NCBI RefSeq assembly: GCF_030127145.1
Contig: NZ_CP126158.1
Coordinates: 496,001-560,000 of the forward strand
Direction: 5' to 3'
DNA from: Halobaculum halobium
GTDB lineage: Archaea > Halobacteriota > Halobacteria > Halobacteriales > Haloferacaceae
Length of the DNA stretch: 64,000 bases
The position numbers were made by a program, and so were the translations under genes. The first letter of the stretch is position 1, and each line of letters begins with the position of its first letter. Under the pieces are notes generated by a model, which was not told the DNA's origin, made no database searches, and was given only the letters and a program-made list of their open reading frames with translations. This document shows, piece after piece, positions 4,051-13,619 of the stretch.

Positions 4051-4173
4051 TGGTGGGCGGCGAACCGGTGTTTCCAGAGGCTCTCGCACTCCAGGACTTG
4101 CCGGAACGCTGGCGGGCTTAACTTCCGTGTTCGGGATGGGTACGGGTGGTGCCCCGCCGCTGTGGCCGCCCGA
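4051..4173 (-). rRNA. rrf: 5S ribosomal RNA
   Basis: The minus strand reads GGGCGGCCACAGCGGCGGGG near the 5' end, then CCCGTACCCATCCCGAACAC, GGAAGTTAAGCCCGCCAGCG and finally ACACCGGTTCGCCGCCCACC. The terminal stem GGCGGCC.../...CGCCGCCC and the universal CCCGAACACGGAAGTTAAG segment identify archaeal 5S. Ends are estimated within a few bases. It follows 23S by about 105 bases, as in other haloarchaeal operons. No tRNA-Cys, usually present after 5S in haloarchaea, is found between it and the terminator. Confidence 0.95.
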
Positions 4174-4227
4174 AGGCCGACCATCGGGAATGATCCGATG
4201 TAGGTGCCTGCGTCGGTCTGTGGCCGA

Positions 4228-4265
4228 TATGTACGTGCAATCCAGGTAACGCCTGGACCCGTTCA
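4228..4265 (-). repeat. 23S rRNA processing stem, 3' arm
   Basis: Positions 4228-4245 are the exact reverse complement of 7243-7260, and 4252-4265 match 7223-7235 as a second helical block. The unpaired bases between the two blocks on each arm are consistent with a bulge-helix-bulge site cut by the archaeal splicing endonuclease during 23S maturation. Confidence 0.9.
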
Positions 4266-4277
4266 CGGGTCCCAGTG

Positions 4278-7200
<2,923 letters not shown>

Positions 7201-7222
7201 CTGATGGTACACTGTGACCCGG

Positions 7223-7260
7223 TGAACGGGTCCAGTGGACGTCTGGATTGCACGTACATA
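7223..7260 (-). repeat. 23S rRNA processing stem, 5' arm
   Basis: The partner arm of 4228-4265: CTGGATTGCACGTACATA at 7243-7260 pairs perfectly with 4228-4245, and TGAACGGGTCCAG at 7223-7235 pairs with the second block. Together they loop out the whole 23S sequence. Confidence 0.9.
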
Positions 7261-7372
7261 CGGTCGTCATCGCACGTCACGTGGGTGTCACGCGAGCGTG
7301 CTCAACCCTTCCCATTCCCGCTCTCGCGGAATGGTGCATCGATCGTGTGTACCAGTTCATCTCCTCGTGCCA

Positions 7373-7383
7373 CACTTAAGGGG
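7373..7383 (-). promoter_or_regulatory. Possible internal promoter in the 16S-23S spacer
   Basis: The minus strand reads CCCCTTAAGTGTGG here. CTTAAGT is close to the TATA elements of haloarchaeal rRNA promoters, and internal spacer promoters are known in Halobacterium. It lies about 175 bases before the 23S 5' end. This is a motif match only. Confidence 0.4.
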
Positions 7384-7409
7384 CACGATTCGAATCGCGG
7401 TACGAGAGT

Positions 7410-7451
7410 GACCTACAGGGAATCGAACCCTGTCGAGGTACCAACGAGGTC
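7410..7451 (-). other. tRNA-like stem-loop remnant in the rRNA spacer
   Basis: On the minus strand a short stem GACCT (7451-7447) / AGGTC (7414-7410) closes a segment that contains GTTGGTA, as in a tRNA D loop, followed by a perfect T-arm-like hairpin ACAGGG-TTCGATT-CCCTGT (7433-7415). There is no anticodon arm and no normal seven-base acceptor, so it is not a functional tRNA. It occupies the place where haloarchaeal operons carry tRNA-Ala(TGC). It may be a decayed tRNA or simply a conserved spacer hairpin. Confidence 0.4.
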
Positions 7452-7476
7452 TGAAAGTGAGCCCCGATAGTTCGTA

Positions 7477-7497
7477 GGTGTCTGGTCGCAACCACGA
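7477..7497 (-). repeat. 16S rRNA processing stem, 3' arm
   Basis: On the plus strand this reads GGTGTCTGGTCG, then CAA, then CCACGA. It pairs with the leader arm at 9070-9093 (TCGTGG...CGACCAGA...CACC), with mismatched interruptions that resemble a bulge-helix-bulge. It lies about 55 bases after the 16S 3' end. Confidence 0.8.
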
Positions 7498-7550
7498 GTG
7501 CCACGAAGACCGCTAAGGTGGGCCAGGCGCGTCGGCCTGGTCCCGTTCTG

Positions 7551-9022
<1,472 letters not shown>

Positions 9023-10885: not shown

Positions 10886-11234
10886 CGGTGCAACTGTGTA
10901 CCGGAGAGCACTCGAAAAGCGGTGTTGTTGCGGGCGGTATGTGAGGTCGGATGTGGTATCGCGGGGTCAGGTGCGGGTGAGGCGAGGTCAGGTGTGGATG
11001 AGGTGAAGTCGAGTTCGGATGGAGTAGGCGAGAGCATGTCCAGTCAGGCCGGACCGGATCGAGTTGGGTCGGGCGGAGGTCGATACGGGAGTGGAGGCGG
11101 AATCACCGGGTGGAGATAGCGTGCCCGAGCTAGCAGGAGACAGTAGTCCGAAACCAAAACTTGAGGACCGACGGGAAGCGATTGTGTGGGGTCGGATCGA
11201 CGCCGTATGGGTCGGCGCTGTGAGACGAGTTCCC
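10886..11234. other. Purine-rich intergenic region beside orc1
   Basis: This 349-base gap between two convergent genes holds one ORB-like element (10907-10927). The rest is a long G/A-rich plus strand with irregular GGTC/GGTG/GGAG runs (about 10950-11110). No coding sequence or RNA gene was recognised. Confidence 0.5.
10907..10927 (-). repeat. ORB-like element downstream of orc1
   Basis: The reverse complement reads CAACACCGCTTTTCGAGTGC, matching the ORB pattern CACACCGGTTTTCGAGTGCT repeated upstream of orc1 in all but a few positions. It lies outside the main origin, past the orc1 stop. Confidence 0.7.
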
Positions 11235-12524
11235 TCAGGTATCGATCAAGCCGGCGTCGCGGAGGATGCGTTCGATGTCGAGCGAGACCCCGTCGAGGGG
11301 GAGTTCGGACTCGTCGATGGCGTCGCGCACCTGCGCAACGGTGAGCGCCTCGGACAGTTCATACGTGTTGTACTGACCGCCGCGGAGGCCCTCGTTGTTC
11401 TGATAGGAGTGGAGAAATCCCAGCATGTCGAGTCGGGTGAGGTGGTTGTACATCCCCCGCTGACTCAGGGGGTCGTCGCCGGCGGCCTGTGCAAGCCGGC
11501 GGTAGGCGGCGTGGATCGCCTTCGTGCGCACGGGCGTTCGACCGTCGGCGTCGAGGCGCGAGACCGCAGAGAGAATGAGCTGCTTGTGTTGGTCCTGGTC
11601 GGCGACCGACTCGACCATGTCCCCGTAGTCGAGTTCCTCTTTCGCCGCATAGACGTCGTCCGGTTCGATGGGAACGTGTCCCTCGTTCTCGGCCTGTTCG
11701 GCCGCCTGCTTGAGCAGGTCCATCGCGCGGCGAGCGCTGCCCGAGGAATTGCGAACCGCGAGTGCGGCACACAACGAGAGCACCTCTTTGCCGTACGTGT
11801 CCGGGTGAAGTGCGCGTTCGGCGCGGGCCTCGATGATCTCCTCCAGTTCCTCGGCCGTGTAGGCGGGGAACTTGATCTCCGTTTCACACAGCGTGTCTCG
11901 GACCTTCGGCGAGAGGTTCGAGCGGAACGTGTAGTCGTTCGAGATCCCGATGAGACCGATGCGCGTGTTCTCCACGTAGCCGATGTCGCGCGCACGCGGG
12001 AGGTCGTACAGTAGCGTGTCGGATTCGCCGACGCGGTCAACTTCGTCGAGTACGATGAGGACGGTGCCGCCGATGGCGTCGAGTTCGTCGTACAGCATCT
12101 CGTACACCTCACGCGCGGCGTACCCCGTCGACGAGACCGTCTCGCCGTCGCGCAGCTCGTTCACCAGCGCGATGGCGACTTGATACGAGGATGCGGTTCC
12201 GTCGGCGGGTGCGAGATTCTGACAGTTGACGCGCACGTAGGTGAAGCCCCGCTCGTCGCCGGGGGCGTCGGCGTTGCGCGAGTCGATGTCGGCGTCGAGT
12301 TCCTGAAGCAGGTACTTGGTCGCCGCGGTCTTCCCGACCCCGGTGTCGCCGTAGAGGAAGGCGTTTCTCGGCGGTCTGCCCTTGTACACGGGTTTCAGGG
12401 CGTTCACGTAGTCCTGCATCACGTCGTCACGGCAGAGGATCTCCGCCGGCGTGTGCTCCTCTGTGAAGAGATCCGCGTTCCGGATTATCTCCACGTCGTC
12501 TTCAAATATCGAACTAGACCCCAT
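11235..12524 (-). CDS. orc1: Orc1/Cdc6 replication initiator
   Basis: A 429-residue AAA+ initiator that binds origin recognition boxes and opens DNA. Visible motifs: Walker A GDTGVGKT (59-66), Walker B VLIVLDEVDR (155-164), sensor 1 GISNDY (193-198), sensor 2 region GSARRAMDLL (262-271), and a C-terminal winged helix with the Cdc6 pattern TDP-like loop and a YNHLTRLDMLGFL segment. ATG 12524 was chosen since residues MGSSSIFEDD start the usual N-terminus and CTTATCAC sits about 30 bases upstream; a longer frame to 12662 runs into ORB-like repeats. The adjacent repeat-rich intergenic region is the probable cognate origin. Haloarchaea carry several orc paralogues; which one this is cannot be told. 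Confidence 0.95.
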   Translation of the reverse strand: MGSSSIFEDDVEIIRNADLFTEEHTPAEILCRDDVMQDYVNALKPVYKGRPPRNAFLYGDTGVGKTAATKYLLQELDADIDSRNADAPGDERGFTYVRVNCQNLAPADGTASSYQVAIALVNELRDGETVSSTGYAAREVYEMLYDELDAIGGTVLIVLDEVDRVGESDTLLYDLPRARDIGYVENTRIGLIGISNDYTFRSNLSPKVRDTLCETEIKFPAYTAEELEEIIEARAERALHPDTYGKEVLSLCAALAVRNSSGSARRAMDLLKQAAEQAENEGHVPIEPDDVYAAKEELDYGDMVESVADQDQHKQLILSAVSRLDADGRTPVRTKAIHAAYRRLAQAAGDDPLSQRGMYNHLTRLDMLGFLHSYQNNEGLRGGQYNTYELSEALTVAQVRDAIDESELPLDGVSLDIERILRDAGLIDT

Positions 12525-12569
12525 GTCGCACCACTCTCTGCGGCCACCCGAGTGATAAGGCTGTGGAAG

Positions 12570-12651
12570 TTCGAGTGCTTTCGCGTGCTTTCGAGTGTTC
12601 GACCGGGGGGTTGCGAGTGCTCTGCGAGTGACTGCGGGTGACTGCGAGTGT
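12570..12651 (+). repeat. Cluster of ORB half-sites upstream of orc1
   Basis: TTCGAGTGCTTTCGCGTGCT and then TTTCGAGTG, followed by repeated TGCGAGTG/TGCGGGTG units and a GGGGGG run. These repeat the right half of the ORB. They sit just before the orc1 promoter, which suggests autoregulation or an extended initiator array. Confidence 0.6.
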
Positions 12652-12675
12652 TCCGCCAGCATACGCCGGGGATAG

Positions 12676-12694
12676 CACCGGTTTTCGAGTGCTT
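12676..12694 (+). repeat. ORB-like element 1
   Basis: CACCGGTTTTCGAGTGCTT, identical to the core of element 2. Confidence 0.8.
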
Positions 12695-12883
12695 CGGCGT
12701 CCGTGACGTACAGCGTGCGCGGAGTTACATTTGGTGAAAATCACAGCCAGTGACGGGACGCGCAGTTAGAGAAGAGGAGGCGGATACGAAAGCGGCGACA
12801 GCGGTAAAACCGCTCAACTGGCAGTCCCGGCTGCACAGGCCCGTCGCGAACGCCGCGATTCGACCACCTGTTGGTCACGGACA

Positions 12884-12904
12884 CACACCGGTTTTCGAGT
12901 GCTT
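12884..12904 (+). repeat. ORB-like element 2
   Basis: CACACCGGTTTTCGAGTGCT followed by T; the best match to the consensus and identical to element 1 over the core. Confidence 0.85.
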
Positions 12905-12955
12905 TTGCTTCGGCGCTCGGGGAGCGACGCCGGACAGTCACCGATCGGTGAGCGT

Positions 12956-12976
12956 CACACCGGATTTCGTGTGCTT
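12956..12976 (+). repeat. ORB-like element 3
   Basis: CACACCGGATTTCGTGTGCT followed by T; two differences from the consensus. Confidence 0.75.
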
Positions 12977-13116
12977 ACTGCCCCGGCTCGGTCGTCGAGC
13001 GAGTGCCTCGACCCGATCTGCCGTATTCAGCCGTCACGTGCGGGTCTGTCGAATTCGGGCCCAGGAGGACGCCCTGTCTCGGCGACGGATTCGGTCGCCT
13101 TCCCAGAGGACTCCCT

Positions 13117-13136
13117 CACACCGTATTTCGAGTGCT
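13117..13136 (+). repeat. ORB-like element 4
   Basis: CACACCGTATTTCGAGTGCT; it lies about 50 bases left of the AT-rich patch. Confidence 0.8.
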
Positions 13137-13186
13137 CGGGTCGAGTGGGTGTAAGCGCGGATTCGAGGGTCGCCACCTCGCAGCGA

Positions 13187-13325
13187 GGTTGTATATAAAC
13201 GAAGGCGTATGGTTACAATCTAGAGATGACTCGGCGGACGAGACTGTCGAATACTGCCGGAAGACTCGTTTGCTTCTTCTTCTTCTAGCTAGGATCGATA
13301 GCCATATATTATACGCGAAGGCCTC
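13187..13325. other. AT-rich candidate duplex unwinding element
   Basis: Contains TTGTATATAAACG, GGTTACAATCTAGAG, a TTCTTCTTCTTCT pyrimidine tract and CCATATATTATACGCG within a region that is otherwise strongly GC-rich. It is bracketed by inverted ORB-like elements 4 and 5. Confidence 0.7.
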
Positions 13326-13359
13326 GCGATTCACCCCTCCCCCACACCGTCCTGTGGAA

Positions 13360-13378
13360 AGCACACGAAAACTGGTGT
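13360..13378 (-). repeat. ORB-like element 5 (inverted)
   Basis: The reverse complement reads ACACCAGTTTTCGTGTGCT; it faces element 4 across the AT-rich patch. Confidence 0.75.
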
Positions 13379-13398
13379 CAGAGGGTGGCCGACCCGAT

Positions 13399-13419
13399 CA
13401 CACCACTTTGCAAGTGCTT
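13399..13419 (+). repeat. ORB-like element 6 (degenerate)
   Basis: CACACCACTTTGCAAGTGCT followed by T; the ends match the consensus and the centre is altered. Confidence 0.5.
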
Positions 13420-13490
13420 CACAGACAGGGAACTCGACGCGAGGTCGTCCAGACCGACGTGGCGCGTCGACGGCGCCTCCACGACGATCC

Positions 13491-13511
13491 CACACCGGGT
13501 TTCGAATGCTT
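13491..13511 (+). repeat. ORB-like element 7
   Basis: CACACCGGGTTTCGAATGCT followed by T; it is about 110 bases from the stop codon of the next gene. Confidence 0.75.
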
Positions 13512-13619
13512 CTCACCGAGATGACCCGCGCTGGATGGTCACAACTGCGTGGAGTGACTCCCGCGCGGAAATCGCCTTCTTCGACGCAGATTGCGAGCGA
13601 TTGCGAGAAGAGAAACTCG

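Follow-up and report, generated by a model that had tools for sequence, protein, structure and literature searches.

Do the repeats that surround an orc1/cdc6 gene of Halobaculum halobium serve as a replication origin only, or do they also place the initiator gene under the control of its own product? The amount of initiator, and hence the firing rate of each origin or replicon, is poorly understood in archaea. The analyzed window (64,000 nucleotides, C1:496001-560000; the genome comprises 3.46 Mb in three contigs) contains the initiator gene and, around it, eight ORBs and an AT-rich patch:

10905..10926, minus strand: ORB 8, downstream of orc (weight matrix and genus comparison)
11235..12524, minus strand: Orc1/Cdc6 initiator gene (429 aa and a stop codon; predicted ATG start at 12522-12524)
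12674..12695, plus strand: ORB 1 (weight matrix and genus comparison)
12884..12905, plus strand: ORB 2, the consensus copy (weight matrix; genus identity 0.952)
12956..12977, plus strand: ORB 3, 72 bp from ORB 2, a spacing conserved in most Halobaculum
13117..13138, plus strand: ORB 4, on the left side of the AT-rich patch
13187..13325, no strand: AT-rich patch between ORB 4 and inverted ORB 5, candidate duplex unwinding element
13190-13201: TATATAAA within the patch (genus identity 0.722 vs 0.313 background)
13283-13319: TAGCTAGGATCGATANNNATATWATATACGCG within the patch (genus identity 0.895 vs 0.313 background)
13358..13379, minus strand: ORB 5, inverted, on the right side of the AT-rich patch
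13399..13420, plus strand: ORB 6, a more diverged copy detected by weight matrix
13491..13512, plus strand: ORB 7, distal (weight matrix and genus comparison)

Judged from its sequence, the gene product is a standard member of the Orc1/Cdc6 family: it (i) matches TIGR02928 with 353 bits and has a Cdc6_lid and a Cdc6_C winged helix, (ii) contains both the Walker A (GDTGVGKT) and the Walker B motif (LIVLDEVD), and (iii) agrees well with the solved Orc1 structures of Sulfolobus and Aeropyrum. The gene is intact and adjoins the ORB repeats. Its closest named relatives are from Halobaculum species, with 97-100 % protein identity across 11/11 genomes of the genus and all alignments beginning at the ATG at 12522-12524. 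About 2 kb past the orc stop codon, a 16S-23S-5S rRNA operon (4052-9022, minus strand) is transcribed away from the origin; this operon is also located next to the orc locus in several further Halobaculum genomes.

The original prediction had counted at least eight ORB-like copies, seven upstream of orc and one at about 10907. Exactly eight were found in this 7 + 1 arrangement, with weight matrix scores of 27.9-35.3; the next-best site in the 64 kb window reaches 15.6. When up to 3 mismatches are allowed, CACCGGTTTTCGAGTGCTT matches 7 times in the window (0.01 expected from shuffles), and the search for further copies that had been proposed as a check again yielded 7 matches across the whole 3.46 Mb genome, all of them at the orc locus; the reversed control pattern had 0 matches genome-wide at the same threshold. 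A spread of ORBs over the genome, named beforehand as evidence against an origin, was thus not seen. Chance as the source of the ORBs was rejected on the basis of the window count relative to shuffles and of the uniqueness of the motif in the genome.

All 11 Halobaculum genomes possess 7 or 8 ORBs with order and orientation kept. Mean pairwise identity among 10 of these genomes amounts to 0.74-0.95 for the ORBs, vs 0.313 elsewhere in the intergenic DNA. On one strand, the ORB ends read CCGGTGTG or similar, i.e., G-rich without a long G run. The single copy past the orc stop codon, earlier described as outlying, is no stray element: it is kept in 11/11 Halobaculum genomes and would fit the titration by downstream ORBs known from Haloarcula hispanica. 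As anticipated, the inverted ORBs at 13117 (+) and 13358 (-) bracket the AT-rich patch, where the AT fraction in 40-bp bins is 0.47-0.55, a modest rise over the mostly 0.33-0.45 of the surroundings. The TATATAAA element could represent unwinding DNA or a second promoter, and elements resembling it occur between ORBs in other Orc families.

Haloarchaeal origins adjacent to orc/cdc6 genes have been described with family-specific ORBs in the adjacent intergenic DNA, an inverted pair around an AT-rich patch, and sometimes ORBs on both sides of the orc gene (Wu et al. 2012, PMC3528665). The present locus shares the Orc1/Cdc6 gene, the family-specific ORBs, the inverted pair around the AT-rich patch and the two-sided ORBs with these origins, and in its sequence layout matches their published definition. 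It is an ORB/orc replicator of an already known haloarchaeal kind, and both two-sided ORBs and downstream titration were known before.

A different kind of element is located at the orc promoter. The cluster of half-sites previously noted there proved to be an array of seven units that is found nowhere else in the own genome:

12553..12559, minus strand: putative TATA box of orc, reading CTTATCA on the coding strand; predicted, with its ATAAG portion conserved across the genus
12570..12652, plus strand: tandem ORB half-site array of seven ORB cores, mostly with a 10-bp step
12570, 12580 and 12590, plus strand: array units 1-3, a conserved block
Between array units 3 and 4: G-tract spacer, mostly ACCGGGGGG, conserved
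12612, 12623, 12633 and 12643, plus strand: array units 4-7, the second block

The array begins about 10 bp upstream of the putative TATA box. Its mean pairwise identity among 10 Halobaculum genomes is 0.887, reaching 0.929 for units 1-3, vs 0.313 for the remaining intergenic sequence, and the 30-bp windows with the highest intergenic conservation have their first base at 12564-12568 and span units 1-3. Between species, arrays differ by indels of 1 bp and 10 bp, and the array is therefore not coding. A longer orc frame extending back to 12662, which would render the array coding, was rejected in view of these indels and the period of 10. In nearly all Halobaculum, array unit 2 (12580) reads CGCGTG instead of CGAGTG; in the related family B, the middle unit likewise deviates (CACGTG), i.e., the deviation is kept.

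For comparison across haloarchaea, orc loci were gathered from the same family and order and from named plasmids, and, in a test with few parameters, each promoter (the segment 20-110 bp ahead of the predicted start codon) was compared with itself at shifts of 5-16 bp, a tandem being called at ≥9 of 12 matching positions. The non-redundant set comprised 37 orc promoters with Orc proteins less than 80 % identical, by which shared ancestry is reduced, not removed. Exact 9-bp tandems are present in 21 of these 37 haloarchaeal promoters (57 %), as compared to 2 % of shuffles and 0-3 % at other lags; Halobaculum, with its step of 10 bp, is the exception to the 9-bp lag. At lag 9, segments of these orc loci lying farther from the gene reach 4.5 %, and 607 putative promoters of the own chromosome reach 11 % (Fisher p 3e-10 vs orc promoters). 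Raised lags of 6, 9 and 12 among the latter look like coding periodicity. At the stricter level of 11/12 matches, lags 9 and 10 account for about 0.3 % each of the putative own-chromosome promoters vs 9/37 (24 %) of the orc promoters. Such an array as a general feature of haloarchaeal promoters was consequently rejected (less than 1 % of own promoters vs 24 % at this level). Among 14 non-redundant non-haloarchaeal orc loci, for which start codons are uncertain, no lag-9 signal and a weak lag-10 signal (3/14) were obtained.

Most other Orc families have a predicted TATA-like element at the equivalent place, and the array adjoins the predicted TATA box in the same orientation. The own genome harbours two independent cases of such an array, i.e., the present locus and the orc gene of the C2 plasmid, while the one own-genome orc without detectable ORBs (L049) is also devoid of an array. 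The orc of plasmid pHME505 of Haloferax mediterranei (L169) has this kind of promoter tandem as well.

The sequence of the half-sites follows that of the ORBs. The ORB core varies among Orc families (TTTCGAGTG, TTTCAAATG, TTTCCTGAG, GTCCGCTGT, TTCCGGAGC and others), and family matrices were built from ORBs outside the 140-bp promoter region, every matrix being scored on every promoter; the matrix seeds were hand-chosen from an automatic search, which is a limitation. The cognate matrix ranks first in 15 of 19 families with a 115-bp window and in 14/18 with the proximal 60 bp, and the observed fit was never reached in 100,000 random pairings (permutation p 1e-5). In an earlier, smaller test of co-variation, the cognate matrix was best in 10/11. 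Some ORB-bearing families and the tandem of pR1SE2 (see below) run counter to the general pattern. Families K, R, T and U have one promoter ORB or half-site and no tandem, and family S has no clear tandem, with a full ORB positioned almost at the start codon. In case of family J (own chromosomal orc at 2.04 Mb), the cognate fit fails and no clear promoter half-site is apparent.

Reading of the array by Orc would be the simplest account of this pattern, because nothing else should follow the ORB core family by family. The self-regulating initiator, formerly a guess, is now strongly supported by comparison, through promoter half-sites that co-vary with the ORBs. As at an autoregulated promoter, putative initiator sites that match the origin ORBs lie beside the initiator's own promoter with its predicted TATA box. 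On these sequence comparisons, the locus is probably a self-contained replicator, in which Orc would fire the origin via the ORBs and repress its own gene via the promoter array. The Orc1/Cdc6 protein made at the locus would bind the ORBs upstream of its own gene, with the distal ORBs firing the origin and the inverted pair 13117/13358 bracketing the melting DNA, at which MCM would be loaded. The same Orc would also bind the tandem half-sites that directly precede the putative TATA box of its gene; excess Orc would fill the array and block TBP/TFB, leading to repression of its own gene. The lone downstream ORB would titrate a little Orc. Array binding by Orc, the order of occupancy, repression over activation, and origin firing are what we infer here. 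Since the step of 9-10 bp is shorter than an ORB of about 22 bp, it suggests either a packed complex of several Orc molecules or a weak, concentration-sensing site.

Alternatively, the array could be an origin element rather than an operator, with Orc assembling in rows and then moving to, or bridging, the ORBs, and with the promoter position being incidental. The shared ORB core and the strictly fixed step, suggesting contacts between neighbouring Orc molecules, would fit such a role, as would the resemblance of the G tract to the G-rich half of the ORB. However, the array stays at about 30-50 bp from the orc start even in families with widely varying ORB and AT-patch distances, and at the present locus it is more than 500 bp away from the AT-rich patch, which makes this alternative unlikely.

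Sites beside BRE/TATA can either block or recruit TBP/TFB, and archaeal activators can likewise occupy DNA immediately upstream of BRE/TATA. Array-bound Orc might hence activate its own promoter, e.g., by recruiting TBP or TFB, and generate a pulse of initiator. However, self-activation would carry the risk of runaway initiation, and bacterial initiators mostly repress themselves. In favour of activation, and as a precedent for an Orc1-family protein acting on its own promoter, Orc1-2 of Sulfolobus binds a motif there, a hexanucleotide site; this relative is not an initiator but a regulator of the DNA-damage response (PMC9738581). Halobaculum Orc, for which binding is putative, likewise has candidate sites at its own promoter, but differs in having a cognate ORB set. 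Activation is assigned a low probability, and repression is the better bet for the sign of Orc self-control, because a self-activating initiator would be unstable.

Because the ORBs are unique, the layout is conserved and the initiator is adjacent, the locus is a well-supported candidate for a second chromosomal replication origin. These features uphold the original prediction of a full candidate origin; the GC-skew check proposed with it was run and turned out flat and uninformative at this locus, as did gene-strand bias (40 sampled 20-kb stretches and the window). Gene-strand bias flips at an oriC1-type orc at 1.63 Mb, and the present locus is therefore probably not the dominant origin of the chromosome. 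The flat profiles would also agree with a dormant or decayed origin retaining its ORBs as remnants, and dormant haloarchaeal origins do exist (PMC4595724). Identities of 0.74-0.95 for the ORBs and 0.89 for the array, vs 0.31 in the intergenic DNA around them, together with the 97-100 % identity of Orc across the genus, render decay quite improbable, while being compatible with dormancy under laboratory conditions.

Finally, a different regulator reading the tandem half-sites, as might be suspected from plasmid pR1SE2 of Halorubrum lacusprofundi (L086), where the promoter tandem (TTTCCAGTG x2) and the nearby ORBs (core TTTTGCGAGTG) differ, is very improbable, as the half-sites co-vary with the cognate ORB in 14/18 families and the array is unique in the genome.

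The promoter half-site array appears to be the new element of this locus and is in our view the real find. Half-site arrays are not described for the origins in PMC3528665, in whose main text the words promoter, tandem and TATA are absent. Likewise, promoter half-sites are not mentioned in the open main texts of Wu 2012, Wu 2014, the work on a dormant origin of Haloferax mediterranei (PMC4595724) and reviews; an earlier description outside these open main texts is possible. As for haloarchaeal cdc6 promoters, only a deletion study was found.

The E. coli dnaA promoter carries DnaA boxes, by which dnaA is autoregulated. In both systems, sites for the initiator (putative ones in Halobaculum) lie at the promoter of its gene and adjoin the origin, whereas the proteins and the promoter machinery are unrelated and the Halobaculum sites are tandem half-sites with a fixed step of 9-10 bp. 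If true, self-control via such arrays would amount to an archaeal parallel of DnaA autoregulation that co-evolves with the ORBs of each replicon, and it would account for each orc gene remaining next to its origin. Through a conserved element that matches the ORBs of each family and lies at the promoter of the initiator gene, self-control becomes a concrete question in tractable haloarchaea. The strict 9-bp step offers a structural clue, pointing to possible side-by-side packing of Orc on DNA. One may tentatively extend this, as a serious possibility somewhat short of a probable one, to most origin-linked Orc1/Cdc6 proteins of haloarchaea: self-control might proceed via a second kind of Orc site, i.e., half-sites with a strict 9-bp step (10-bp in Halobaculum) beside the TATA box, bound by a packed multi-subunit Orc unlike the complex on a single ORB.

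ORBs downstream of the initiator gene are shared with oriC2/oriC2D of Haloarcula hispanica, where a cluster of 11 ORBs beyond cdc6E reduces oriC2 activity, probably through titration of Cdc6E, and two downstream ORBs have an intermediate effect (Wu et al. 2014, PMC3936714). Past the Halobaculum orc lies one conserved ORB rather than an oriC2D-type cluster, and any titration should therefore be small; by analogy, the single ORB may be a weak version of oriC2D titration.

In a sister lineage (H. halophilum, H. salinum and sp. XH14; L025-L027, L088), the orthologous orc is located on a plasmid of 196-264 kb, sharing the ORBs and the array of the Halobaculum locus. Four ORB copies lie downstream of orc in these plasmid-borne orthologues, and the genus-specific TAGCTAGGATCGATANNNATATWATATACGCG element was not found in them. 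The plasmid location of orthologous orc, ORBs and array suggests that the replicator moved between plasmid and chromosome. The plasmid contig C3 of the own genome carries two near-identical orc copies (L047 at about 57 kb and L048 at about 165 kb), one with a shorter frame, representing either a duplication or an assembly artefact.
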